Source: Candidatus Bipolaricaulota bacterium (GTDB taxonomy: Bacteria > Bipolaricaulota > Bipolaricaulia > Bipolaricaulales > Bipolaricaulaceae). Taken from it: a stretch of DNA of 32,956 nucleotides. Positions 13 to 27,078 of the stretch are shown here, piece by piece. The stretch is from assembly GCA_937921255.1 (NCBI GenBank), contig CAKZSO010000036.1, forward strand, positions 1 through 32,956, in the 5' to 3' direction. The first letter of the stretch is position 1. Each line of letters begins with the position of its first letter. The position numbers and the translations under genes were made by a program. A model generated the notes under the pieces. The model saw only the letters and a list, made by a program, of their open reading frames with translations, was not told where the DNA came from and searched no databases.

Positions 13-363
13 TCAGTAGATCATCGGATCGAGTCCGTAGGGGACATCGGACACGCAACTGCACACGATCCTGGTCTGCAAACACATCCAGACGGAGGGG
101 CAGCCCGCAATGCATCCCTGCAGACAAGGGCTGCACCACCACCAAAGGAACTCGCACAGATTAACGCACCTCGGGTCGACGTTTTGGTACCACCAAACAC
201 AGACTTCCTCGCAGTGGTAGGCTGTTCCGGGTGGGCACAGCTCGTACATGAGTTGCACAATCCCATCGGGGTTTCGGGTTGGCCAAGCCACGCTCCCATC
301 ACCTGCCAGGCCGAGGACCCCGACCGCCAGCACCAGGGCCAACCCCAAAGCCGTCGCCCGCAT
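13..363 (-). CDS. Secreted Cys/Trp-rich small protein, cassette C1 (signal peptide MRATALGLALVLAVGVLGLAGDGSVA; about 12 Cys in mature part)
   Basis: ORF with AAGGAGGTG Shine-Dalgarno just before ATG at 363; hydrophobic Sec-type signal; mature part rich in C/W (e.g. EFLWWWCSPC). Confidence 0.8.
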   Translation of the reverse strand: MRATALGLALVLAVGVLGLAGDGSVAWPTRNPDGIVQLMYELCPPGTAYHCEEVCVWWYQNVDPRCVNLCEFLWWWCSPCLQGCIAGCPSVWMCLQTRIVCSCVSDVPYGLDPMIY

Positions 364-384
364 CCCGCACCTCCTTGCAGTCTC

Positions 385-474
385 TCACTGGTCGGTCCCA
401 CCCTCGCGGACAAGGGCGAGGACCCCACGGCGAAGGATCCGTTCCAGCGGATCACCCCCTCTTCCTCGAGGCAT
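385..474 (-). CDS. Putative 29-aa upstream leader ORF of C1 (MPRGRGGDPLERILRRGVLALVREGGTDQ)
   Basis: ATG a few nt after the predicted TSS; stops 21 nt before the C1 ATG; the C-terminal motif LRRxVL(A/V)(L/V)V(R/G)EGGTx(Q/D)-stop recurs in all five modules. Confidence 0.4.
   Translation of the reverse strand: MPRGRGGDPLERILRRGVLALVREGGTDQ
402..421 (-). promoter_or_regulatory. 5'UTR hairpin (CCTCGC-8 nt-GCGAGG)
   Basis: Inverted repeat within the leader; the stem is kept in C2 (with a G-U pair) and extended in C5 (CCTCGCC/GGCGAGG). Confidence 0.4.
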
Positions 475-483
475 CGCCAACAA

Positions 484-512
484 TATATAAAGTGAACCCG
501 GAGCCACCTCAA
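484..512 (-). promoter_or_regulatory. Sigma70-type promoter of C1: -35 TTGAGG (507-512), 17-bp spacer, -10 TATATA (484-489)
   Basis: Canonical spacing; duplicated exactly upstream of C3. Confidence 0.65.
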
Positions 513-857
513 CCTCCGGGGAGGAGACCAGAAGACGAACCCGATGGCAGGGCTTCGAGCTCGACCGCGAGCACCCCGGCCCCGATCCGGTGTTGGCCGG
601 CGAACGCGGCCACTGCGCCCCGGTGGGCCCTCGGGGTGACCGTCGTCCCGCCGGCGCCCCCGGGCCGGAGCGGGTCCCGGCCGGCGGGGCGATGCGCCAC
701 GGCTCAGGGAAGGATGGGGCGTTCCTACGATTCGCCCCCCCGTGACCCAGGCCACCCCAGAACGCGGCTAGCAGGGCACCAACGCCCACCGTAGCCCTGG
801 CAACGGTCGCCCCTCGGCTGCCCCCCTCCTGCCGACCGTCATCGCCGGGGGCGCGAC

Positions 858-1667
858 CTAGAGGTCGATCCCAACCTCCCTCAGCGCGTCGCGCGCCTCC
901 CGGGCGAGCGGGGGGTTCACCCTCTCCGTAGCGGCGAGCGCATCCCGGAGCCGCGCCAGAAGCTCCTCTGCGTCCAAAACCACGCGCTCCACGAGTTCCC
1001 AGGTGTAGCGCACCGCGACTCCCAGGGTTCCCTGGGCCCGCACGGGGATCCACCCCGGCCCCGCCGCACCGTCCTCCCCGGGCCACCACGCCTGGCCCTG
1101 GTGCGAGGTGTTTCCCCAGCTCGCGGAGTAGGTGCTCGCGTACAGGCCCCCGAACGTCCCCGCCGGGACCGTGACCGCTCCGTGGGGACCGAGGGCCAGG
1201 CGGATCTCCCCTCGTCCGACGGCACCTCCGTCCAGCAGCTGCTGGAACGAGAGCGTCAACTCCAGCTCCGGCACCGGCACCGCGGGGAGGGCAACCCCCT
1301 GGACCGGGGGCATCCCTCCCCGAAGCTCAGGGACGAGGTCGAGCACCGTGGGCCATCGCAGGACCACCGGGTCCGGCCCCGCGGCGGGGGTGGCCAGAGG
1401 GGCACCGAGGCCCACGGGCCAGACGCTCAGCGTCGTCCCCCTGTCGTCGTCGCCGATGACCGCGATGGCTTGCCTCCCCCCGGGCTCGCCCACGCCCAGA
1501 AACGTGAGAGTCGTCGTGCGGGTGACGTCTCGGGCCAGATCCGTCACCTGGGCCCGGTAGACCCAACCGAGACCTGGGCCAATCCCCCCCGGCACGGGCG
1601 ACCCCGCGGCCTCAACCCCGATCCCGGAAGCGAGGACAAGACACGACAGCGCCAAGAACCTGTTCAT
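858..1667 (-). CDS. Secreted protein of unknown family (about 269 aa)
   Basis: Signal peptide MNRFLALSCLVLASGIGVEA; AAGGAGGTG SD upstream of ATG at 1667. Confidence 0.75.
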   Translation of the reverse strand: MNRFLALSCLVLASGIGVEAAGSPVPGGIGPGLGWVYRAQVTDLARDVTRTTTLTFLGVGEPGGRQAIAVIGDDDRGTTLSVWPVGLGAPLATPAAGPDPVVLRWPTVLDLVPELRGGMPPVQGVALPAVPVPELELTLSFQQLLDGGAVGRGEIRLALGPHGAVTVPAGTFGGLYASTYSASWGNTSHQGQAWWPGEDGAAGPGWIPVRAQGTLGVAVRYTWELVERVVLDAEELLARLRDALAATERVNPPLAREARDALREVGIDL

Positions 1668-1745
1668 CGCCACCTCCTTGCGTCGGGACAAACCCCAGCC
1701 ACCGCCGGTGCTCCGGGCACCCCGCGGTGGATGCTACCCATCGCT

Positions 1746-2093
1746 TCAGTACACGAGCGCCACCTCGCCTACTGAGTACGGGATAGCTTCTGGTGGGAAA
1801 GGTCCACACACGTACGACGTCCTCCACCTCAGGCAGATCGGTCCGATCACGGGCAAGACGATGAAGTTCTCGCAATACTCGCCATAGCAGCAGATGTACC
1901 ACCAGGTTAGGTCCGGGCCGCAACGCCACTTGTACCAACACCACCAGTCCGTGGGCGGGGAAGCCTGGGGGCACATTGCACAGATGGCTCCTTCATCGTC
2001 AACTGCCACCGGCCCCGCCACGCTCCCATCACCTGCCAGGCCGAGGACCCCGACCGCCAGCACCAGGGCCAACCCCAAAGCCGTCGCCCGCAT
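1746..2093 (-). CDS. Secreted Cys/Trp-rich small protein, cassette C2 (about 9 Cys)
   Basis: Signal peptide identical to C1, AAGGAGGTG SD; mature part e.g. DWWCWYKWRCGPDLTWWYICCYGEYC; the longer ORF to 2159 is rejected because of SD position and cassette homology. Confidence 0.8.
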   Translation of the reverse strand: MRATALGLALVLAVGVLGLAGDGSVAGPVAVDDEGAICAMCPQASPPTDWWCWYKWRCGPDLTWWYICCYGEYCENFIVLPVIGPICLRWRTSYVCGPFPPEAIPYSVGEVALVY

Positions 2094-2106
2094 CCCGCAC
2101 CTCCTT
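2019..2106. repeat. 88-bp copy of the signal-peptide/SD part of the module, identical to 289-376
   Basis: Direct base comparison by eye. Confidence 0.9.
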
Positions 2107-2115
2107 TTTCGTTCT

Positions 2116-2190
2116 TCAGTCAACGGTTCCGCCCTCGCCCACGACGACGAGGACCCCACGGCGAAGGATCCGTCCCCCGCAGTGGATCAC
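2116..2190 (-). CDS. Putative C2 upstream leader ORF (GTG start; (M)IHCGGRILRRGVLVVVGEGGTVD)
   Basis: Same C-terminal motif and same about 22-nt distance to the downstream ATG. Confidence 0.3.
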   Translation of the reverse strand: MIHCGGRILRRGVLVVVGEGGTVD

Positions 2191-2230
2191 CCCTCCGGGC
2201 TTTCGGTGTGCGCGCGGAGGCGACCACCGG

Positions 2231-3349
2231 CTACTCCCGGGGGTCGGAGCGCGTCTCACCTTCCTCGGCGGCAGCTGCCCCTACGAACCATAGCTGCAGG
2301 CGATCCAGGGCCGCCACCGCGAGCAGATCGCCGTCAGGGGCAAAGGAGAACGAGACGACGGGCGCTCCCACCTCCAACGTCCCGATCTCCTCCCAACGGG
2401 TGGTGTCCCGCAGGGTGACCCTCCCGTCGCTTCCCCCCGCGGCAAGGATGTCCCCCGAGGGGGCCAACGCCACCGCGTGCATCGGGAGCCCCGGACGGGC
2501 TACGGTTCTGCCGTAGTGCACGCCCCACGGGGTCGGCCAGAGGAACACCAGCCCCGGACCCGCGGAGGCCAGATCACCCGTAACGGGGTTCACGGCCAAC
2601 GCCCGTACTTCGGAGGGGTGGCCGAACAGGAGGCGAGGGGGCTCCTCCTCGTGCAGATCCCAGATTCGGATGACCCCATCGTCGAACCCGCCGATGACGT
2701 AGCGGCCCGCGACATCGAACACCACCGCCATGGCCGTTGAGACCGTGCGCCCAAGGTCGGAAGGGAGGGCGACGAGCTTCGCAACAAGGTTCCCCGTCAC
2801 CACGTCCCAGACCTTCACGGAGAACTCGGCGGTCCCCGCAGCCAGCAGGGTGCCCTGGGGGTTGAAGGCGAGGGACCAGACCGCCGATGGATGATCGAGG
2901 ACCCGAAGGACCGTCCCGGTATCCAGGCTCCACAGGAACAGCTTGCCATCGCGGCCGCCGGACGCCAGCACGCCTCCCCCAGGGTGAAAGGCCACGGCTC
3001 CCACCTCATCGCGGTGACCTTCGAGGGTGGCGGCCACCCAGGCCGATCCGCCGATCTCCCAGAGTCGAACCCGCCCATCCGAGCTCGCCACGGCTACCCA
3101 GCGGCCGTCGGGGCTGACAGAAAGCGCCTGTAGCCGTCCGCGGTGGCCGTAGAGAACGCAATGGGTCAGAGGCCGAGATGGCGGGCACGCTGTCCAGTCC
3201 GAGGAAACCGCCGCGCTGTTCGCCGCTTGCACCGTGAGGAGCGCCGCGGCGAATACAACCAGCAGGCACTGAGCTCCTCCCCTTGAGCTGCTTAAGCACA
3301 GGTTCCCGTCTGACCAACGTCCGTCTATTCCACGCTTCCCTCGACCCAT
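2231..3349 (-). CDS. Secreted WD40-repeat beta-propeller protein (WD40-A)
   Basis: Repeated SPDG...VxLWD units (e.g. GHRGRLQALSVSPDGRWVAVASSDGRVRLWEIGG); ATG at 3349 with GAGGGGG upstream; hydrophobic N-terminal segment. Confidence 0.8.
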   Translation of the reverse strand: MGRGKRGIDGRWSDGNLCLSSSRGGAQCLLVVFAAALLTVQAANSAAVSSDWTACPPSRPLTHCVLYGHRGRLQALSVSPDGRWVAVASSDGRVRLWEIGGSAWVAATLEGHRDEVGAVAFHPGGGVLASGGRDGKLFLWSLDTGTVLRVLDHPSAVWSLAFNPQGTLLAAGTAEFSVKVWDVVTGNLVAKLVALPSDLGRTVSTAMAVVFDVAGRYVIGGFDDGVIRIWDLHEEEPPRLLFGHPSEVRALAVNPVTGDLASAGPGLVFLWPTPWGVHYGRTVARPGLPMHAVALAPSGDILAAGGSDGRVTLRDTTRWEEIGTLEVGAPVVSFSFAPDGDLLAVAALDRLQLWFVGAAAAEEGETRSDPRE

Positions 3350-3425
3350 AGAACCCCCTCGTGGCATGCGCTCCACCTCCGAGCAGACTGAGTAGGTGCG
3401 TGTCGGGCCGAGGCCGTGGGAGGTG

Positions 3426-3842
3426 TCACCACGGAAGTCCTTCGGGCCTGAACCCCGCCCAACCGTGGGGGTCGTACATGGGCCTCGGCGTGAGCAAATC
3501 GTAGCACCGGAAGTCCGACTTGGTACGGTACTCGGTGCAAGACACGCAGTCCATCCCGCAGAGGTAGTTGCAGACTTGGGCTGCCTTGCCTGTGAGCAAG
3601 CAAAAAGCTGTGCACAACGCGAGACACCCTCCATCGAGGACTTCCCTGACGCAGATGTGCTCGATGCAGAAGGTGCACCACTTGTCGGGATACACATGAA
3701 TCCAGCACTCTTTCCATTCCGTGTATTTATCCAGTCGTGACTCCGGCGCTTCGGCCACCGGCCCCGCCACGCTCCCGTCACCTGCCACACCGAGGACCCC
3801 GACCGTCAGCATCAGGGCCAACCCCAAAACCGTCGCCCGCAT
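3426..3842 (-). CDS. Secreted Cys-rich small protein, cassette C3 (about 12 Cys)
   Basis: Signal MRATVLGLALMLTVGVLGVAGDGSVA, AAGGAGGTG SD, Cys-rich mature part. Confidence 0.8.
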   Translation of the reverse strand: MRATVLGLALMLTVGVLGVAGDGSVAGPVAEAPESRLDKYTEWKECWIHVYPDKWCTFCIEHICVREVLDGGCLALCTAFCLLTGKAAQVCNYLCGMDCVSCTEYRTKSDFRCYDLLTPRPMYDPHGWAGFRPEGLPW

Positions 3843-3863
3843 CCCGCACCTCCTTGCAGTCTC

Positions 3864-3953
3864 TCACTGGTCGGTCCCACCCTCGCGGACAAGGGCGAGG
3901 ACCGGACGGCGAAGGATCCGTTCCAGCGGATCACCCCCTCTTCCTCGAGGCAT
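3864..3953 (-). CDS. Putative 29-aa upstream leader ORF of C3 (MPRGRGGDPLERILRRPVLALVREGGTDQ)
   Basis: Same position and near-identical sequence to 385-474. Confidence 0.4.
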   Translation of the reverse strand: MPRGRGGDPLERILRRPVLALVREGGTDQ

Positions 3954-3962
3954 CGCCAACAA

Positions 3963-3991
3963 TATATAAAGTGAACCCGGAGCCACCTCAA
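3963..3991 (-). promoter_or_regulatory. C3 promoter: -35 TTGAGG (3986-3991), 17 bp, -10 TATATA (3963-3968)
   Basis: Copy of the C1 promoter. Confidence 0.65.
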
Positions 3992-4154
3992 CCTCCGGGG
4001 AGGAGACCAGAAGACGAACCCAATGGCAGGGCTTCGAGCTCGACCTCTTTCCCATAACGTAAGGCCGCGCTGGGCCTGCCAGGGATCGCTCTACGCAGCG
4101 TTGGGGTCCGACGGATCCGTACCCACACCAGGGAGAGGACGGGGGAGACGGCCT

Positions 4155-4184
4155 GGCCCACCGGGCCCCGGGGCCCGTTGGGCC
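4155..4184 (-). terminator. Possible terminator/transcript-end structure after WD40-B (15-bp stem, one mismatch, no unpaired loop)
   Basis: GGCCCAcCGGGCCCC/GGGGCCCGtTGGGCC inverted repeat between the WD40-B stop (4202) and the C3 promoter; no U-tract. Confidence 0.4.
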
Positions 4185-4201
4185 TTCGGCCGCGCCGATC
4201 C

Positions 4202-5235
4202 TCACTCCCCCCAGGGGAGCGTCCAGACGTGGGCCGTGGCCTTCATCGCGTCGAGGGACAGCGTGACCACGAGCACCTCCTGGCCATCGGGACTGAACTC
4301 GATGAGGAGTCCGTGGGCTTTCTCCCCCGTCGGGGGGTCGATCCGACGGCAGGCCGGCAGGGACCCCAGTACCTCCCCCGAGCGGCCGTCCCAGAGGAGG
4401 ACCGTCCCGTCGGCCAAGGCCAGGGCAAACCGGCCCCCGCTCGGGTCGGCAGCCACCTGATGCACTTTCCAGCCGCTCGGAAGAAGGAGGGTGGCCGCTC
4501 TTCCGCCGCCCGGGCCTTCCCAGACCTCGATCCGCGTCGCCGCGGCCTCCCGAATCAAGAGGGCAACTTGTCCGTTGGGGAGAAGCTCAGCCGGACCGGG
4601 GAAGATCCTGGCCAGCCGGCCCTCGGCGAGATCCCAGGCCGGAGCCACGAGGGACGAGCCGGCCCCCGCGAGGCCCACGAGCCAGCGGCCATCCGGACTG
4701 AACGCCACCGGGCACACCCGTCCCAGGGGGAGGAACTCGGTGAACGAGAACCGGAGCTCCCCCGAGGCGAGGTCCCACACCCGGAGGTCTCCGTCCGGGC
4801 CGGAGGCGGGAAGCAAGGTTCCGTCCCGGCTCAGCGCGGCGCACCCGCCCCAGAGCGGCGCCGGGAACGAGGCGACCTCCCGCCCCGCCGGAACGTCCCA
4901 GACCTGGACGGTCCCGTCGCTCACGGCGATCGCCAGGAGCCCCGCCTCCGCGGTGGCGGGGCGTCCCACAAACCGAAGGCCCAGCGGGGCGAGGACTCGG
5001 CCGAGCTCCTCCCCAGAGCGGGGGTCGGTCAGCCGGACCGACCACGCGTCCACCCAGGCGAGGGAGTTCCAGCTTGCGTCGAGGCTGACGCCGGCCAAGC
5101 CGCCGCTGAACCCCTGTTCCCCCACGAGGCGAAGCTCCCCACGGAGGGGAGGCACTCTGCCCCGATCCCGCCCAACGCACCGAGGACCCCCACGCTGCCG
5201 ATCGCCAAACCCAACGCCAGCGACATCGCCCGCAT
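4202..5235 (-). pseudogene. WD40-repeat beta-propeller (WD40-B) preceded by a diverged cassette leader/signal peptide (C5) in a different frame; frameshift near 5125-5165
   Basis: The ATG with cassette-like signal MRAMSLALGLAIGSVGVLGALGGIGAECLPSVG at 5235 is out of frame with the WD40 frame ...GELRLVGEQGFSGGLAGVSLDASWNSLAWVDAW...; could be a sequencing error, a genuine frameshift or recoding. Confidence 0.65.
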
Positions 5236-5257
5236 CCCGCACCTCTTTTGCCGTTCT

Positions 5258-5359
5258 TCAGTCACCGGTTCCGCCCTCGCCCACGACGGCGAGGACCTCA
5301 CGGCGGAGCACTTCCTGGGCGACAGGGCCCTCGTGTACCCAGCGGATCCCCCCCGGCAT
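5258..5359 (-). CDS. Putative C5 upstream leader ORF (MPGGIRWVHEGPVAQEVLRREVLAVVGEGGTGD)
   Basis: MP-G start and LRRxVLAVVGEGGTxD-stop shared with the other leaders; 22 nt before the signal-peptide ATG. Confidence 0.35.
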   Translation of the reverse strand: MPGGIRWVHEGPVAQEVLRREVLAVVGEGGTGD

Positions 5360-5424
5360 CGGAGCGCGCACTGCGTTCCAGCGTCGACACGGCTTCCCGG
5401 TGAGCCCACCGGGGGGTGTCCGGC

Positions 5425-6504
5425 CTACTCCGCTCCTGACAGCTTCCCCAGGTACCACACGTAAGCCGCCCCTGTCCAGGCACTGATCCCCGAGATCAGG
5501 GCACTCCCATCAGGGCTGAACACCAGGTTGTGCACAGGGGCCCAGAACCTGCGAGGAGAATCGGGCCGTGCTCCCTCCAGGGCATCGTAGTGGGGGACGC
5601 GCACGCCCAGGACGTCCCACAGGTCGATGCGCAGCGCCTCCTCCCCCTTGGGCACGTCCCACAGGATCACAGTCAGATCGAGCGCCCCCGAGGCAAGCGC
5701 TGTGCCAGACGGGTGAAACGCAAGGCTCATCACCTCGTCGGTGTGCCCGACGAACGCCCTCACCTCACGGCCCGTGGCGACCTCCCACACCCGAACCGTG
5801 GTGTCCCGCGACCCTGACGCCAGAAGCCGCCCGTCGGCGCTGAACGCAAGACAGGTCACGGTGGCTCCGTGGCCGGGTGCGGACCAGACCTTCGTCCCGC
5901 TTGCCACATCCCACAGGTGGATGCCCCTGTCGAGCGCTGTGGCCGCGAGGGATTTCCCGTCTGGACTGAACTGGAGCTTGTACGCACTCCCGGGCGCAGC
6001 GATGCGTCGAACCTCCTCCCGGCGCTCCAGGTCCCAGATCGAAATCTCAAAGGAGCTTGCCAAGGCCAGAAGCCTCCCATCCGGAGACAGCGCGATGTCC
6101 CCCGGGAATCCTGGGGGGGCAGCGACGGAGAACAGCTCCACCCCAGACGGGATTTCCCACACGATCAGCCTTCCATCCGAGCGAAACGCTGCAAGGAGCT
6201 TCCCATCGGAGCTGACGGCAGGGAAGCCGAACTTCATCCACGGCGTGGGGACGTTGAGTCGGACCAGTTCATGTCCCGTCTGAAGATCAGTGACAAGGAT
6301 GGCCCTTGCCCAACTCAGGTAGACTCCTACCTGCCAGCCCGGGTCGACGGCCACAAGGCTGGACCAGGCAGGCATGGGAAGCTCAACGAACGTGAGCGAC
6401 GTGTCCGGCCACCGGCTGACCTCTCGCCAAACCGGGTTGCCCACTGCTTCCAGCGGTAAGAGCACCAGAGCCAACACGAGCGGAACTGCCAGAATTCTCA
6501 CCAT
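5425..6504 (-). CDS. Secreted WD40-repeat beta-propeller protein (WD40-C)
   Basis: Signal MVRILAVPLVLALVLLPLEAVG; repeated FSPDGxxLASGSRDTTVRVWEV-type units; AAGGAGGGGG SD. Confidence 0.85.
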   Translation of the reverse strand: MVRILAVPLVLALVLLPLEAVGNPVWREVSRWPDTSLTFVELPMPAWSSLVAVDPGWQVGVYLSWARAILVTDLQTGHELVRLNVPTPWMKFGFPAVSSDGKLLAAFRSDGRLIVWEIPSGVELFSVAAPPGFPGDIALSPDGRLLALASSFEISIWDLERREEVRRIAAPGSAYKLQFSPDGKSLAATALDRGIHLWDVASGTKVWSAPGHGATVTCLAFSADGRLLASGSRDTTVRVWEVATGREVRAFVGHTDEVMSLAFHPSGTALASGALDLTVILWDVPKGEEALRIDLWDVLGVRVPHYDALEGARPDSPRRFWAPVHNLVFSPDGSALISGISAWTGAAYVWYLGKLSGAE

Positions 6505-6678
6505 CTTGACCCCCTCCTTGTGTCTTCTCTCACCTACTCCCCTCCACCTTGTGAAGTACGGCCAGGAGGGCACTACGAAGCTGGTTCAAGTTCGACTATC
6601 TCGTCGTGCACGCAGCGAATCGCCTTCTGGCCTCGGAGCACGCACTCCGGTCCAACGGAGACACGTCCCCCCGATGAG

Positions 6679-6996
6679 TCATACGGGCGTGATCTCGAGA
6701 ACCCAGTACGGCAGTTGCCAGTCAGGATCGCACCAGGGCACAAACGTGCACTCAGTGTACGTGTAGCCCGACCAGCCCGTCCAACACCAGTACTGGCAAC
6801 ACAGGTAGATGACTGACGCGCACCAGCAGTTCAGGACATAGCAGTACGTGTCAGCGCCTGACAGGGAGTCGTCGCCCTGTTGGCAAGGAGTGCACCCGTA
6901 GGATCCTTCTGCCGCCCATACCACGCTCCCATCACCTGCCAGGCCGAGGACCCCGACCGCCAGCACCAGGGCCAACCCCAAAGCCGTCGCTCGCAT
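6679..6996 (-). CDS. Secreted Cys/Trp/Tyr-rich small protein, cassette C4 (about 10 Cys)
   Basis: Same signal peptide and SD; mature part e.g. YLCCQYWCWTGWSGYTYTEC. Confidence 0.8.
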   Translation of the reverse strand: MRATALGLALVLAVGVLGLAGDGSVVWAAEGSYGCTPCQQGDDSLSGADTYCYVLNCWCASVIYLCCQYWCWTGWSGYTYTECTFVPWCDPDWQLPYWVLEITPV

Positions 6997-7093
6997 CCCG
7001 CACCTCCTTGCAGTCTCTCACTGGTCGGTCCCACCCTCGCGGACAAGGGCGAGGACCGGACGGCGAAGGATCCGTTCCAGCGGATCACCCCCT
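6922..7093. repeat. 172-bp partial copy of the module (lacks the promoter half)
   Basis: About 3 differences from 289-460. Confidence 0.9.
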
Positions 7094-7217
7094 TTGGGCG
7101 GGGTCCCGACCGTCGGGGCAGGGAGGCCGGATTTGGAGGTGTCGTGCGCGGTGTGCCCACCGGGAAGGCCCAGAGGCGACCCATTACCCCGGACGGGCCG
7201 GCTCCACCCTACATTCT

Positions 7218-7244
7218 AGTATAGGTACCCCCCTCCGCTATCAA
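7218..7244 (-). promoter_or_regulatory. Possible C4 promoter: TTGATA (7239-7244), 15-bp spacer, TATACT (7218-7223)
   Basis: Motif match with short spacer; located where C4 has lost the C1/C3 promoter. Confidence 0.3.
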
Positions 7245-7260
7245 GGGGGCGAGGAGGCCC

Positions 7261-8463
7261 CTAGCCGGCCGAGGGATCCAGGAGGACGGCGGAGACGGCC
7301 TTCCCCGCCGCGAGCGCCGCCCGCACCCGGCCCAGGAGCCGGACCATGAACCGCACGTTGTGGAGGGTGGCGAGCCGGTAGTAGGAGAGCTCCCCCGCCT
7401 GGAGGAGGTGGCGGAGGAAGGCCCGGGAGTACCGCCCGCAGGTCGGGCAGTCGCACCCCTCCTCGACTGGGCCGTCGTCGCGGGCGAACCGGGCGTTCTT
7501 GATGGGGATCCGGAACCCTTCTTCCGCCAACGAGAGGAGGACCCCATTCCGGGCCAGGCGGGTCGGCGCCGCGCAGTCGAACGTGTCCACCCCCCGGGCC
7601 ACCGCCTGGAGGACGTCCTCCACCCCCCCGATCCCGAGGAGGTGCCGGGGCCTGTCCGGGGGGAGCTCCTCGGCCGTCCACTCGACGACCCGGAGCATCT
7701 CCTCCTTCGAGCGGCCCAAGGAGCCGCCGATCGCGAACCCCGGAAAACCCATCCCCGCGATCGCCCGGGCCGAGGCCCGCCGGAGGTCCTCGTAGGCCCC
7801 GCCCTGGACGATCCCCCACAGAGCTTGCGCGGGGTTCGGACCCACCCCCTGGGTGCGCTCAAACGCCGCGAGAGCCCGCTCCGCCCAGCGGTGGGTCCGC
7901 TCCATGGCCCTTTTCGTGTACGCGTGGTCGTGGAACGGGGACGTGCACTCGTCCAACGGGAGGATCACGTCGGCCCCAAGGAGCCGCTGGAGGCGGATCA
8001 CACCCTCGGGGGGGAAGAACACCGGGGAGCCGTCGACCACGGACCGGAAGTGGGCCCCGTCCTCAGTGAGGTGGACGAGGCTTTCCCCCACGGGTTTCGG
8101 GGGGGCGTCCCCGGGGAACACGGACGCGATCTTCCCCACCCCGTGGACCTTCCCCGCCCCGAGGCTGAACACCTGGAACCCCCCGGAGTCGGTGAACCAG
8201 GGGCCCCGCCAGCCAGTGAACCCCTGCAGCCCGCCCAGGGCGGCGACCCGTTCCGCCCCGGGCCGCAGGGCGAGGTGGTAGGTGTTCCCGATGAGGACCT
8301 CGACCCCGAGCCGCTCGAGGTCGTCCACCCCGAGGGCCTTGACCGTCCCCCGGGTGGCCACGGCGACGAACGCCGGGGTCCGAACCGTCCCGTGGGGGGT
8401 CACAAGCTCCCCGGCCCGGGCCTCCGACCCCGGAACTCGAGACGTGATCCGGAACTCGGTCAT
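7261..8463 (-). CDS. tgt: Queuine/preQ1 tRNA-guanine transglycosylase
   Basis: TGT family motifs (WFTDSGGFQVFSL, GNTYHLALRPG, Zn-site CDCPTCGRYSRAFLRHL); start ATG 8463 overlaps the upstream stop. Confidence 0.9.
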   Translation of the reverse strand: MTEFRITSRVPGSEARAGELVTPHGTVRTPAFVAVATRGTVKALGVDDLERLGVEVLIGNTYHLALRPGAERVAALGGLQGFTGWRGPWFTDSGGFQVFSLGAGKVHGVGKIASVFPGDAPPKPVGESLVHLTEDGAHFRSVVDGSPVFFPPEGVIRLQRLLGADVILPLDECTSPFHDHAYTKRAMERTHRWAERALAAFERTQGVGPNPAQALWGIVQGGAYEDLRRASARAIAGMGFPGFAIGGSLGRSKEEMLRVVEWTAEELPPDRPRHLLGIGGVEDVLQAVARGVDTFDCAAPTRLARNGVLLSLAEEGFRIPIKNARFARDDGPVEEGCDCPTCGRYSRAFLRHLLQAGELSYYRLATLHNVRFMVRLLGRVRAALAAGKAVSAVLLDPSAG

Positions 8464-9410
8464 CAGTAGGCCGGGGTCCGGACCCGGGGGTGGGGAACCG
8501 GGAGCGACCCTTGGGACCGGTTCCAGAGGATCCAGTCGACCTCGAACGCCCGCACGGGGCGGCCCAGGCGCCAGAGCTCCGCCACAACCCCCTCCACGGC
8601 GACGACCGTGGCCGCCCGGAGCTCGACCTCCTCGGGGGACCCTGGCCGGAGCTCCTCCCCCCGCCGGAGCCGCCGGGCCAGGACCGGATGGAGCGCAAGG
8701 GCCCCCTCGGCCCACAGGAGCTGGGGGAGCTTGTAGTCGGCGAACGCGGTGAGCCACTCCAAGTCGCGGAGCTCCCCCGGGCCTTGGCCCCCGAACGTCC
8801 CCCACAGGTCGGCGCACAGGATCTGGGCCCGCTTGTGGAAGGGGACCCCCCGGCCGCGGTACAGGGCGGCGTCCCGAAACAGGGGGAGCTCGGCGGTGAG
8901 GAGCTCCACAACCCCGCGGCACGAGCCCCCGGCCCGGGCGAAGAAGGCCTCCGCCGAACCCCACCGGAGAAGGGCTTCTCCCACCTCCCGGAGGGCGCGG
9001 ATCCGCCACGGGAGGAGGGGGATCTCCCCGAGCACCGCCCGCACCCTCTCCCCGTCCACCCCGACCAACGCGTCCGGTCTGAAGAACGACGGGCTTTCTT
9101 CCGCCGCCCGCCGGAGAGCCCAGGCGAGGGCGAAGTACCCGGTCAGCCGCTCCCCCCCGGGCCCCCCCACCGCCCACTTCGCCCCGGTCCCGACCAGGGG
9201 GGGCCAGAAGCAGAAGTTGAGGGCATCGAGGACGAGAAGGTAGCGGAGGGTGAGCTCCTCCTCCCCCCGGAAGTGGTACCGCCCCTCCCAGGGGGGGACG
9301 GGGTTATTCCCGATTCGCTCGGCAAGGCACTCCACACCCTCAGGATCGACCCGAACCCACCGCGCCTGGCGGGCGACCCAAAAAGCTTCCGTTCGAACCG
9401 GGTTTTCCAT
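8463..9410 (-). CDS. Queuosine salvage protein (DUF2419 / QNG1-type queuosine 5'-phosphate N-glycosylase)
   Basis: Family-like LVLDALNFCFWP motif, GYFALAWALRRA, FHKRAQILCADLWG; overlaps tgt. Confidence 0.8.
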   Translation of the reverse strand: MENPVRTEAFWVARQARWVRVDPEGVECLAERIGNNPVPPWEGRYHFRGEEELTLRYLLVLDALNFCFWPPLVGTGAKWAVGGPGGERLTGYFALAWALRRAAEESPSFFRPDALVGVDGERVRAVLGEIPLLPWRIRALREVGEALLRWGSAEAFFARAGGSCRGVVELLTAELPLFRDAALYRGRGVPFHKRAQILCADLWGTFGGQGPGELRDLEWLTAFADYKLPQLLWAEGALALHPVLARRLRRGEELRPGSPEEVELRAATVVAVEGVVAELWRLGRPVRAFEVDWILWNRSQGSLPVPHPRVRTPAY

Positions 9411-25153: not shown

Positions 25154-25229
25154 TGGCAGGCCCGGGAGGACTTGAACCCCCAACCTACGGATTTGGAGTC
25201 CGCCGCTCTGCCATTTGAGCTACGGGCCT
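25154..25229 (-). tRNA. tRNA-Trp (anticodon CCA), encoded 3' CCA
   Basis: AGGCCCGTAGCTCAAATGGCAGAGCGGCGGACTCCAAATCCGTAGGTTGGGGGTTCAAGTCCTCCCGGGCCTGCCA. Confidence 0.95.
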
Positions 25230-25233
25230 CAAA

Positions 25234-25261
25234 CCCCGCGGCCCCTGGTGGCGCCGCGGGG
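25234..25261 (-). promoter_or_regulatory. 9-bp-stem hairpin between rpmG and tRNA-Trp
   Basis: CCCCGCGGC-10 nt-GCCGCGGGG inverted repeat. Confidence 0.5.
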
Positions 25262-25290
25262 ATAGCCTGGTCGTTCCCCCTTTCGGGCCC

Positions 25291-25452
25291 TTAGGTCTCC
25301 TTGTGCTCGGTGCGCTTCGTGCACCAAGCGCAGTACTTGTTCAAGGCGAGCTTCTGCCGCGTGTTGTTCCGGTTGCGGCGGGTATGGTAGTTGTGCCGCC
25401 CGCACGCGGAACAGGCCAGCGTCACCAGCTGCACCGTCTCCTTCTTCGCCAT
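25291..25452 (-). CDS. rpmG: Ribosomal protein bL33 (53 aa)
   Basis: Translation [53 protein letters not shown]; missing from the supplied ORF track, probably because of length. Confidence 0.95.
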
Positions 25453-25453
25453 G

Positions 25454-26668
25454 TTACTTGAGGATCTTCGTCACGACGCCGGCCCCCACGGTCCGTCCGC
25501 CCTCGCGGATCGCGAACCGGAGGCCTTCCGACATCGCGATGTGCTTCATCAGCTTGCAGCGGAGCTTGTCCACGTTGTCCCCAGGCATGACCATCTCCAC
25601 GCCGGCCGGGAGCTGGACCTCGCCCGTGACGTCGGTTGTCGTGAAGTAGAACTGCGGCTTGTAGCCGTTGAAGAACGGGCTGTGGCGGCCGCCCTCGTCC
25701 TTGGAGAGGACGTACACCTGGGCCTCGAACTCGGTGTGGGGCGTGATCGAGCCGGGCGCCGCGAGCACCTGGCCGCGCTCCACCTCGTCTTTTTCGATCC
25801 CGCGGAGGAGGATCCCCACGTTGTCGCCGGCGATGGCCTGGTCGAGGATCTTGTTGAACATCTCGAGGCTCGTGGCGACGGTCTTGCGGATTTCATCCGT
25901 GAGCCCGACGATCTCTACCTCCGCCCCGGGGGTGATCCGGCCCCGGTCCACGCGGCCGGTGACCACGGTGCCGCGGCCCTTGATCGAGAAGATGTCCTCG
26001 ATCGGCATCAGGAAGGGCTTGTCCTCCTCGCGCTTGGGGAGAGGGATGAAGCTATCAACCGCGGCCATGAGGTCGAGGATCGGCTTGGCGGCCGGGTCGT
26101 CTACCGAGCCTGCGGCCAGCGCCTTGGAGGCCGACCCGCGGATGATCGGGGTCTTGTCGCCGGGGAACTCGTACTTGGAGAGGAGGTCGCGGATCTCGAT
26201 CTCAACGAGATCCACGAGATCAGGGTCCTCCACCAAATCGACCTTGTTCAAGAACACGACGATCGCCGGCACGTTCACCTGGCGGGCGAGCACGACGTGC
26301 TCCCGGGTCTGCGGCATCGGGCCGTCGGCGGCGGACACTACGAGGATCGCCCCGTCCATCTGCGCAGCACCGGTAATCATGTTCTTGATGTAGTCCTGGT
26401 GACCGGGGCAGTCGATGTGCGCGTAGTGACGGGTGTCCGTCTCGTACTCGACGTGGGCGACGTTCACGGTCAGGATCTTCGTCGCATCGCGGCGGAAGAG
26501 CTTCGCATCGGCCTTGGCGACCTCGTCGTAGGACCGGTGCTTGGCCAGGCCCTTCAGGCCGAGGACCTTCGTGATCGCCGCGGTGAGCGTGGTCTTCCCG
26601 TGGTCGATGTGCCCGATCGTGCCGATGTTGACGTGTGGCTTCGTCCGTACGAATTGTTCCTTTGCCAT
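25454..26668 (-). CDS. tuf: Elongation factor Tu
   Basis: [54 protein letters not shown]. Confidence 0.97.
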
Positions 26669-26745
26669 CCTAACACCCTCCTCGTTTTCCTCCCCAGCTT
26701 GGACCCGGAGTAGTCGGGGCGTTCGCCGCCCGCTGCCCGTCCGAG

Positions 26746-26818
26746 AGCCCGCGGTCGGAATCGAACCGACGGCCTCTTCCTTACCAAGGAAGTGCTCTGC
26801 CGACTGAGCTACACGGGC
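26746..26818 (-). tRNA. tRNA-Thr (GGT)
   Basis: GCCCGTGTAGCTCAGTCGGCAGAGCACTTCCTTGGTAAGGAAGAGGCCGTCGGTTCGATTCCGACCGCGGGCT cloverleaf. Confidence 0.95.
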
Positions 26819-26862
26819 GAGGAGGCACAGTCTACCCTACCGCGCCCATTGCGCGCAAGTCA

Positions 26863-26949
26863 TGGTGGAGGGGGAGGGATTCGAACCCCCGAAGGCCTCA
26901 GGCCGCCGGGTTTACAGCCCGGTGCGTTTGACCACTTTGCTACCCCTCC
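26863..26949 (-). tRNA. tRNA-Tyr (GTA), long variable arm, encoded CCA
   Basis: GGAGGGGTAGCAAAGTGGTCAAACGCACCGGGCTGTAAACCCGG...GGTTCGAATCCCTCCCCCTCCACCA. Confidence 0.95.
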
Positions 26950-27005
26950 GGGACAAACGGTTCGCCGCTTCCCGGCTGAGCCGACAACCAGGTCCCCAGT
27001 TGGTG

Positions 27006-27078
27006 AGCCAGTGGCCCGACTCGAACGGGCGACCTTCCGCTTACAAGGCGGATGCTCTGCCTGTTGAGCTACACTGGC
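27006..27078 (-). tRNA. tRNA-Thr (TGT)
   Basis: GCCAGTGTAGCTCAACAGGCAGAGCATCCGCCTTGTAAGCGGAAGGTCGCCCGTTCGAGTCGGGCCACTGGCT. Confidence 0.95.

Follow-up and report, generated by a model that had tools for sequence, protein, structure and literature searches.

The window analysed here, 32,956 nucleotides that form a whole contig of a 1.29-Mb metagenome-assembled genome of Candidatus Bipolaricaulota, carries four minus-strand genes, g1 to g4, for small cysteine-, tryptophan- and tyrosine-rich proteins with signal-peptide-like N-termini, here called minis. We propose, at a probability of about one half, that the minis are exported disulfide-stapled proteins, which owe their folding to a twin thioredoxin of their own and act together with a β-rich partner encoded beside them. 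The proposal draws on the adjacency of a tandem-thioredoxin gene to the minis, on its relics and fusions, on the specificity of the downstream partners, on purifying selection in two core types, on leader homogenisation and on a crossover in the related genome G014. All relatives compared also belong to Candidatus Bipolaricaulota, a phylum described as anaerobic and little known, with very few cultured members. Within this sparsely cultured phylum, the minis are an undescribed protein family, predicted to be exported and tied to an apparently dedicated thioredoxin and to type-matched partners.

Sequence and distribution of the mini-proteins

All four open reading frames lie on the minus strand: g1 (type A, 13-363, 116 aa), g2 (type B, 1746-2093, 115 aa), g3 (type C, 3426-3842, 138 aa) and g4 (type D, 6679-6996, 105 aa). 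Past the predicted signal peptides they contain 12, 9, 12 and 10 cysteines and 7, 7, 5 and 8 tryptophans, respectively, in keeping with a sequence-only reading of this DNA that had called the mature parts rich in Cys, Trp and Tyr; export of the minis, claimed in the same reading, is likewise supported as a prediction. The cores hold 3, 4, 11 and 0 Lys plus Arg against 9, 10, 16 and 9 Asp plus Glu. No open reading frame of at least 80 aa with 8% or more Cys and 8% or more Trp plus Tyr arose in 30 shuffled windows, mononucleotide shuffling being a weak null for such a test.

The leader reads MRATALGLALVLAVGVLGLAGDGSVA in g1 and g2, the same with SVV in g4, and MRATVLGLALMLTVGVLGVAGDGSVA in g3. 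Each start is preceded by a Shine-Dalgarno-like AAGGAGG, and each N-terminus, as read from the sequence, has Arg2, a hydrophobic core and LA before [GDNE]DGSV. What marks the family is a motif just past the predicted cleavage site, DGSVxWP when intact, and not the signal peptide itself. DGSV is kept in every copy that retains a leader, DGSVPWP stands behind quite different signal peptides in G016 and G017, and the variants NGSALYP and NGSVDWP occur in G006 C53 and G022. A fifth mini, with two DGSVxWP-type motifs, lies on C64, another contig of the window's own genome (G000). A profile search for further copies had been suggested; against 100 genomes of the phylum, the leader profile gave strong matches confined to the same taxonomic family. 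Together with motif and thioredoxin searches, it brings the tally to about 25 mini loci in 13 genomes of that one family.

The earlier statement that the minis belong to no recognised family stands. Searches of Pfam, NCBIfam, PHROGs and PADLOC assigned none, with only sub-threshold chance matches in NCBIfam and Pfam; no convincing solved-structure relative was found in the PDB, and the known precursor families of bacteriocins and of ribosomally synthesised and post-translationally modified peptides (RiPPs) in NCBIfam and Pfam were unmatched. Structure prediction, which had been proposed as a check, gave poor models (predicted local distance difference test score 55 for a mini and 45 for one partner), too poor for a fold search. 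A viral origin was rejected, since neither a PHROG match nor a related viral contig turned up. A search of the literature collection used here found no paper combining Bipolaricaulota with cysteine-rich proteins.

A tandem-thioredoxin gene and its relics lie upstream of the minis

A thioredoxin gene lies directly upstream of a mini at eight loci in seven genomes (G000 C64, G004, G031, two in G007, G006 C53, G022 and G017), often with overlapping ends. By our tally, a thioredoxin gene, a fusion or a tail is present at each of the 24 mini loci whose upstream DNA is available. The intact protein is about 290 aa long and exported-looking, with CPVC or CPAC and CPPC motifs. In the L089/L070 protein, we read two thioredoxin-like halves with CxxC motifs behind a signal-like N-terminus; its domain 2 matches PF00578 (AhpC-TSA, E=2.8e-8) and PF08534, and the first half alone is unmatched by Pfam. 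Domain 2 thus shares the PF00578 superfamily with thioredoxin-fold proteins of the DsbE, MauD and AhpC-TSA kind, from which the whole differs in joining two thioredoxin-like halves, each with CPxC, in one exported chain. In two genera, represented by G012 and G024, an in-frame fusion joins the first half to a Cys-rich segment (L063 7513-7851 and L108 1399-1974).

Within the window, the thioredoxin gene remains solely as relic tails on the minus strand. The conserved repeat upstream of the minis, which the sequence-only reading had taken for part of a 5' leader unit, is largely the decayed 3' end of this exported tandem-thioredoxin gene. The clearest relic, GGIRWVHEGPVAQEVLRREVLAVVGEGGTGD followed by a stop, lies at 5258-5353 and matches the end of an intact gene in G007 at 77% identity across 31 aa (E=1.3e-9); tails in G005 reach 81% identity (E=8e-12). 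In tblastn searches with the intact tail, relics were also found directly before g1 (385-444, ERILRRGVLALVREGGTDQ followed by a stop) and before g2 (2122-2169), g3 (3864-3923) and g4 (7018-7077); singly these are weak (E 0.015-0.16), and it is DNA identity that ties them to the clear copy. A conserved 5' regulatory RNA was rejected as an explanation of the repeat, which has no Rfam match and is a thioredoxin tail. The clear copy overlaps a fifth leader module (5180-5308, minus strand) before the WD40 gene at 4202, its frame broken just past AECLPSVG. The WD40 gene region 4202-5353 carries both a mini leader and a thioredoxin tail, and in its G005 counterpart the frame is open. This fifth leader, the C64 mini, the DGSVxWP motif and the identity of the upstream repeat go beyond the earlier description.

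Downstream partners follow the mini type

The gene after a mini usually encodes an exported protein whose family tracks the mini type: TYRV for type A, VYRAEV for type B and a WD40 propeller for types C, D and E. A TYRV protein follows type A in five of five cases (G014, G006, G007, G005 and G012), and a VYRAEV protein follows type B or B-like minis in all seven copies with downstream sequence (the window, G014, G005, G007, G004 and two in G009). In the window, the VYRAEV protein (858-1667, minus strand, 269 aa) is exported; wherever a genome contains VYRAEV genes as well as type B minis, the two are neighbours. WD40 proteins follow type C, type D and the minis of C64, G006 C53 and G022, and in G031 the WD40 gene comes one gene later. 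The G017 partner is VYRAEV-like, and that of G016 has a weak BNR-repeat match. On the minus strand of the window, WD40-repeat proteins are encoded downstream of g3 (2231-3322), at 4202-5155 and, as an exported protein, downstream of g4 (5425-6504); the G005 counterpart of the second has a different N-terminus and lies directly downstream of type D.

The partners are β-rich. The propellers match WD40 models. Neither TYRV nor VYRAEV has a match in Pfam, and homology between these two was not supported. Among the PADLOC anti-phage models, VYRAEV, TYRV and the thioredoxin were unmatched like the minis, and the WD40 proteins matched just a WD40-bearing HEAT model. Exported WD40 proteins (L070 3515-3805, L068 2470-3570 and window 2231-3322) carry a CPP..PxTxC motif near the N-terminus. 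In G031 (L068 1630-2466) and G007 (L062 2010-2735), proteins without a Pfam match, one of them exported-looking, lie between the mini and the next gene.

Type A and B cores are conserved between species

Orthologues of g1 (type A) occur in G014, G006, G007, G005 (frameshifted) and G012 (fused), and those of g2 (type B) in G014, G005, G007 and G009 (leaderless copies). G004 carries a partial relative of type B, and G005 a distant counterpart of type D at the same position; no orthologue of type C was found among the related genomes. The G014 copies are nearly identical to those of the window. Compared with the window gene, type A cores (G006, G007) are 64-74% identical and type B cores (G005, G007) 74-79%, with ratios of nonsynonymous to synonymous substitution (dN/dS) of 0.20 and 0.24-0.53, respectively; other core pairs lie mostly at 0.16-0.42. 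Among the diverged relatives G005, G006 and G007, dN/dS is mostly 0.16-0.26 and reaches 0.3-0.6 in a few pairs. The mini genes show a third-position excess between species. Because dN/dS is mostly about 0.2, the A and B cores are under ordinary purifying, not diversifying, selection and are conserved by type, which overturns the earlier description of the mature domain as hypervariable. The claim that mature parts do not align with one another holds in general, failing for a short C-terminal stretch of types A and B (22 columns, E=0.048); homology between core types was rejected beyond this weakly shared C-terminus.

Leaders are homogenised within genomes

The 66 nucleotides ending at DGSV are 100% identical in g1, g2 and g4 and 91% identical in g3, bearing out the near-identical leader noted earlier. 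The similarity extends upstream as a recombined module, which in g1 (281-566, minus strand) comprises the leader and about 203 nucleotides before it. This module is 96% identical to that of g3 (3760-4045), 98% to that of g4 (6921-7083) and 88% to that of g2 (2011-2176), whose leader alone is 100% identical. From -200 to 0, g1 and g3 agree in 95-100% of their DNA (90% in a single bin); in the leader the identity is 85-95%, and it drops to 20-30% at +80, just past the DGSV codons.

Over ten leaders, mean identity was 0.91 for different types in the same genome and 0.74 for the same type in different genomes (permutation p=0.0004, a guide only, the leaders being few and related). The leader is therefore constant within a genome, as had been claimed, but not across species for the same type, so that no cross-species constraint is implied; the type A leader diverges between species about as fast as its core. 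Since leader identity tracks the genome and not the core type, it reflects within-genome recombination. In G005, a single complete contig, about 588 kb separate the type A gene from B and D, yet it shares 94% leader identity with each of them, which rules out short-read assembly as the cause in that genome. G007 departs from the rule, its A and B leaders being just 62% alike.

Gene conversion and unequal crossover make the leaders alike and remove mini-partner blocks as well. In G014, the type B gene combines a g2 core with the upstream sequence of g4 in the window, the switch falling inside the leader; given the order tgt, D, WD40, B in G005, the intervening block was probably lost in G014. 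Because G014 (L066 8974-12721) matches window 359-8991 with a block at 99.7% identity, an abrupt boundary and flanks at 74-76%, recent interspecies transfer or a chimeric assembly has to be reckoned with. The leader-module repeats probably broke the assembly of this contig and of its G014 counterpart.

The minis offer a clear bacterial example of homogenised leaders in front of dissimilar mature domains. Conotoxins and nodule-specific Cys-rich (NCR) peptides similarly place alike signal peptides before unlike Cys-rich mature parts; the minis differ in being bacterial, in cores kept by type between species and in a leader sameness that comes from within-genome recombination. A bolder extension, which we rate as rather unlikely, is that the leader and relic thioredoxin tail serve as a recombination handle for adding, deleting and re-pairing cores with exported partners, giving strain-specific surface or antagonistic mini sets folded by a single twin thioredoxin.

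A model for mini folding and the alternatives

In the model that we favour, Sec would export the mini, signal peptidase would cleave it ahead of [GDNE]DGSV, and the twin thioredoxin would make or reshuffle its disulfides; beyond the membrane, the stapled mini might then serve the partner encoded beside it as a binding module or subunit. In genomes like that of the window, the one remaining complete thioredoxin, on C64, may serve all copies. The thioredoxin-mini-partner set is a candidate for a new complex, whether disulfide-folding or cofactor-bearing. Several observations weigh against this model. About ten thioredoxin-2 homologues, mostly in other genera, have no Cys-rich neighbour, and the thioredoxin protein therefore has other work too. 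At E 1e-6, searches of G005 and G014 turned up no intact thioredoxin gene, though both genomes retain minis. Cysteine number varies within a type (11-13 in A, 8-9 in B), which is odd for a fully paired scaffold. Copies are broken in G005 (type A), G009, G012 and the WD40 gene at 4202, and part of the system is therefore decaying. VKOR was not found in nine genomes (DsbB was not searched for) and was rejected as the oxidant; DsbD-type proteins are present but not specific.

By logic, the closest analogues are peptide clusters that include a thiol-disulfide enzyme of their own. The minis could be secreted bacteriocin-like antagonists, with the downstream protein giving self-protection, an option that we regard as doubtful but deserving attention. 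They are small, exported and Cys-rich, their gene sets are patchy and turn over fast, and the neighbouring gene is type-matched; against this, the window cores have few basic residues, unlike cationic peptides, selection on them is purifying, no bacteriocin model was matched in NCBIfam or Pfam, and we know of no WD40 propellers that act as immunity proteins. Sublancin and glycocin clusters, with a BdbB-type oxidoreductase, likewise pair a secreted Cys-containing peptide with a dedicated thiol-disulfide enzyme encoded beside it (PMC4336743 and PMC6391423). Here, unlike there, the signal peptide is of Sec type, the cores are 85-130 aa long, anionic and aromatic, and neither a glycosyltransferase nor a peptide exporter was seen near the minis. 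The RiPP-style logic suggested earlier finds no backing among the neighbours examined, which are the tandem-thioredoxin gene, tgt and genes for exported proteins of WD40 or other families; no modifying enzyme was seen among them, although no dedicated scan for RiPP enzymes was made.

Metal binding or redox storage in thiolate clusters would suit the high Cys content, with CC and CxxC-like spacing, and the failure to find a VKOR-type oxidant, and would tolerate a variable Cys number. The very high Trp and Tyr content, unlike that of metallothioneins, the export of the minis and their tie to an exported CPxC twin thioredoxin, which favours disulfide chemistry, make it unlikely. By architecture, the closest analogue is methylamine dehydrogenase, which combines a small Cys/Trp-rich chain, a β-propeller and a thioredoxin-like accessory (MauA, MauB and MauD), much as WD40-type cassettes put mini, propeller and thioredoxin-like genes together. 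A mini could by that analogy resemble the small subunit of this enzyme or of quinohemoprotein amine dehydrogenase, with Trp-derived cofactors or crosslinks, binding to a propeller and thioredoxin-like maturation; the γ-subunit of the latter has Cys crosslinks and CTQ (PMC7876137). We consider this very unlikely. The minis do not match Me-amine-dh_L and the partners do not match Me-amine-dh_H (for two window propellers, among the 25 top-ranked of more than 40 families), the propellers being of WD40 type; the thioredoxin has twin domains and a weak MauD match (TIGR02661, 20.6 bits) far under the 188.6-bit cut-off; the analogy breaks down for types A and B, since no propeller model fits their partners; several minis are interchangeable; and the phylum is described as anaerobic. 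Finally, low codon-model scores and many broken copies in relatives might suggest chance or decaying open reading frames, a view made extremely improbable by the dN/dS values, the third-position excess, the Shine-Dalgarno-like sequences and the retention of DGSV.

Other features of the window

The tgt gene (queuine tRNA-ribosyltransferase; 7261-8463, minus strand) is the anchor of the locus in related genomes. At the other side, positions 1-13 bring the contig end directly against g1. Four tRNA genes lie on the minus strand at 25157-27078.

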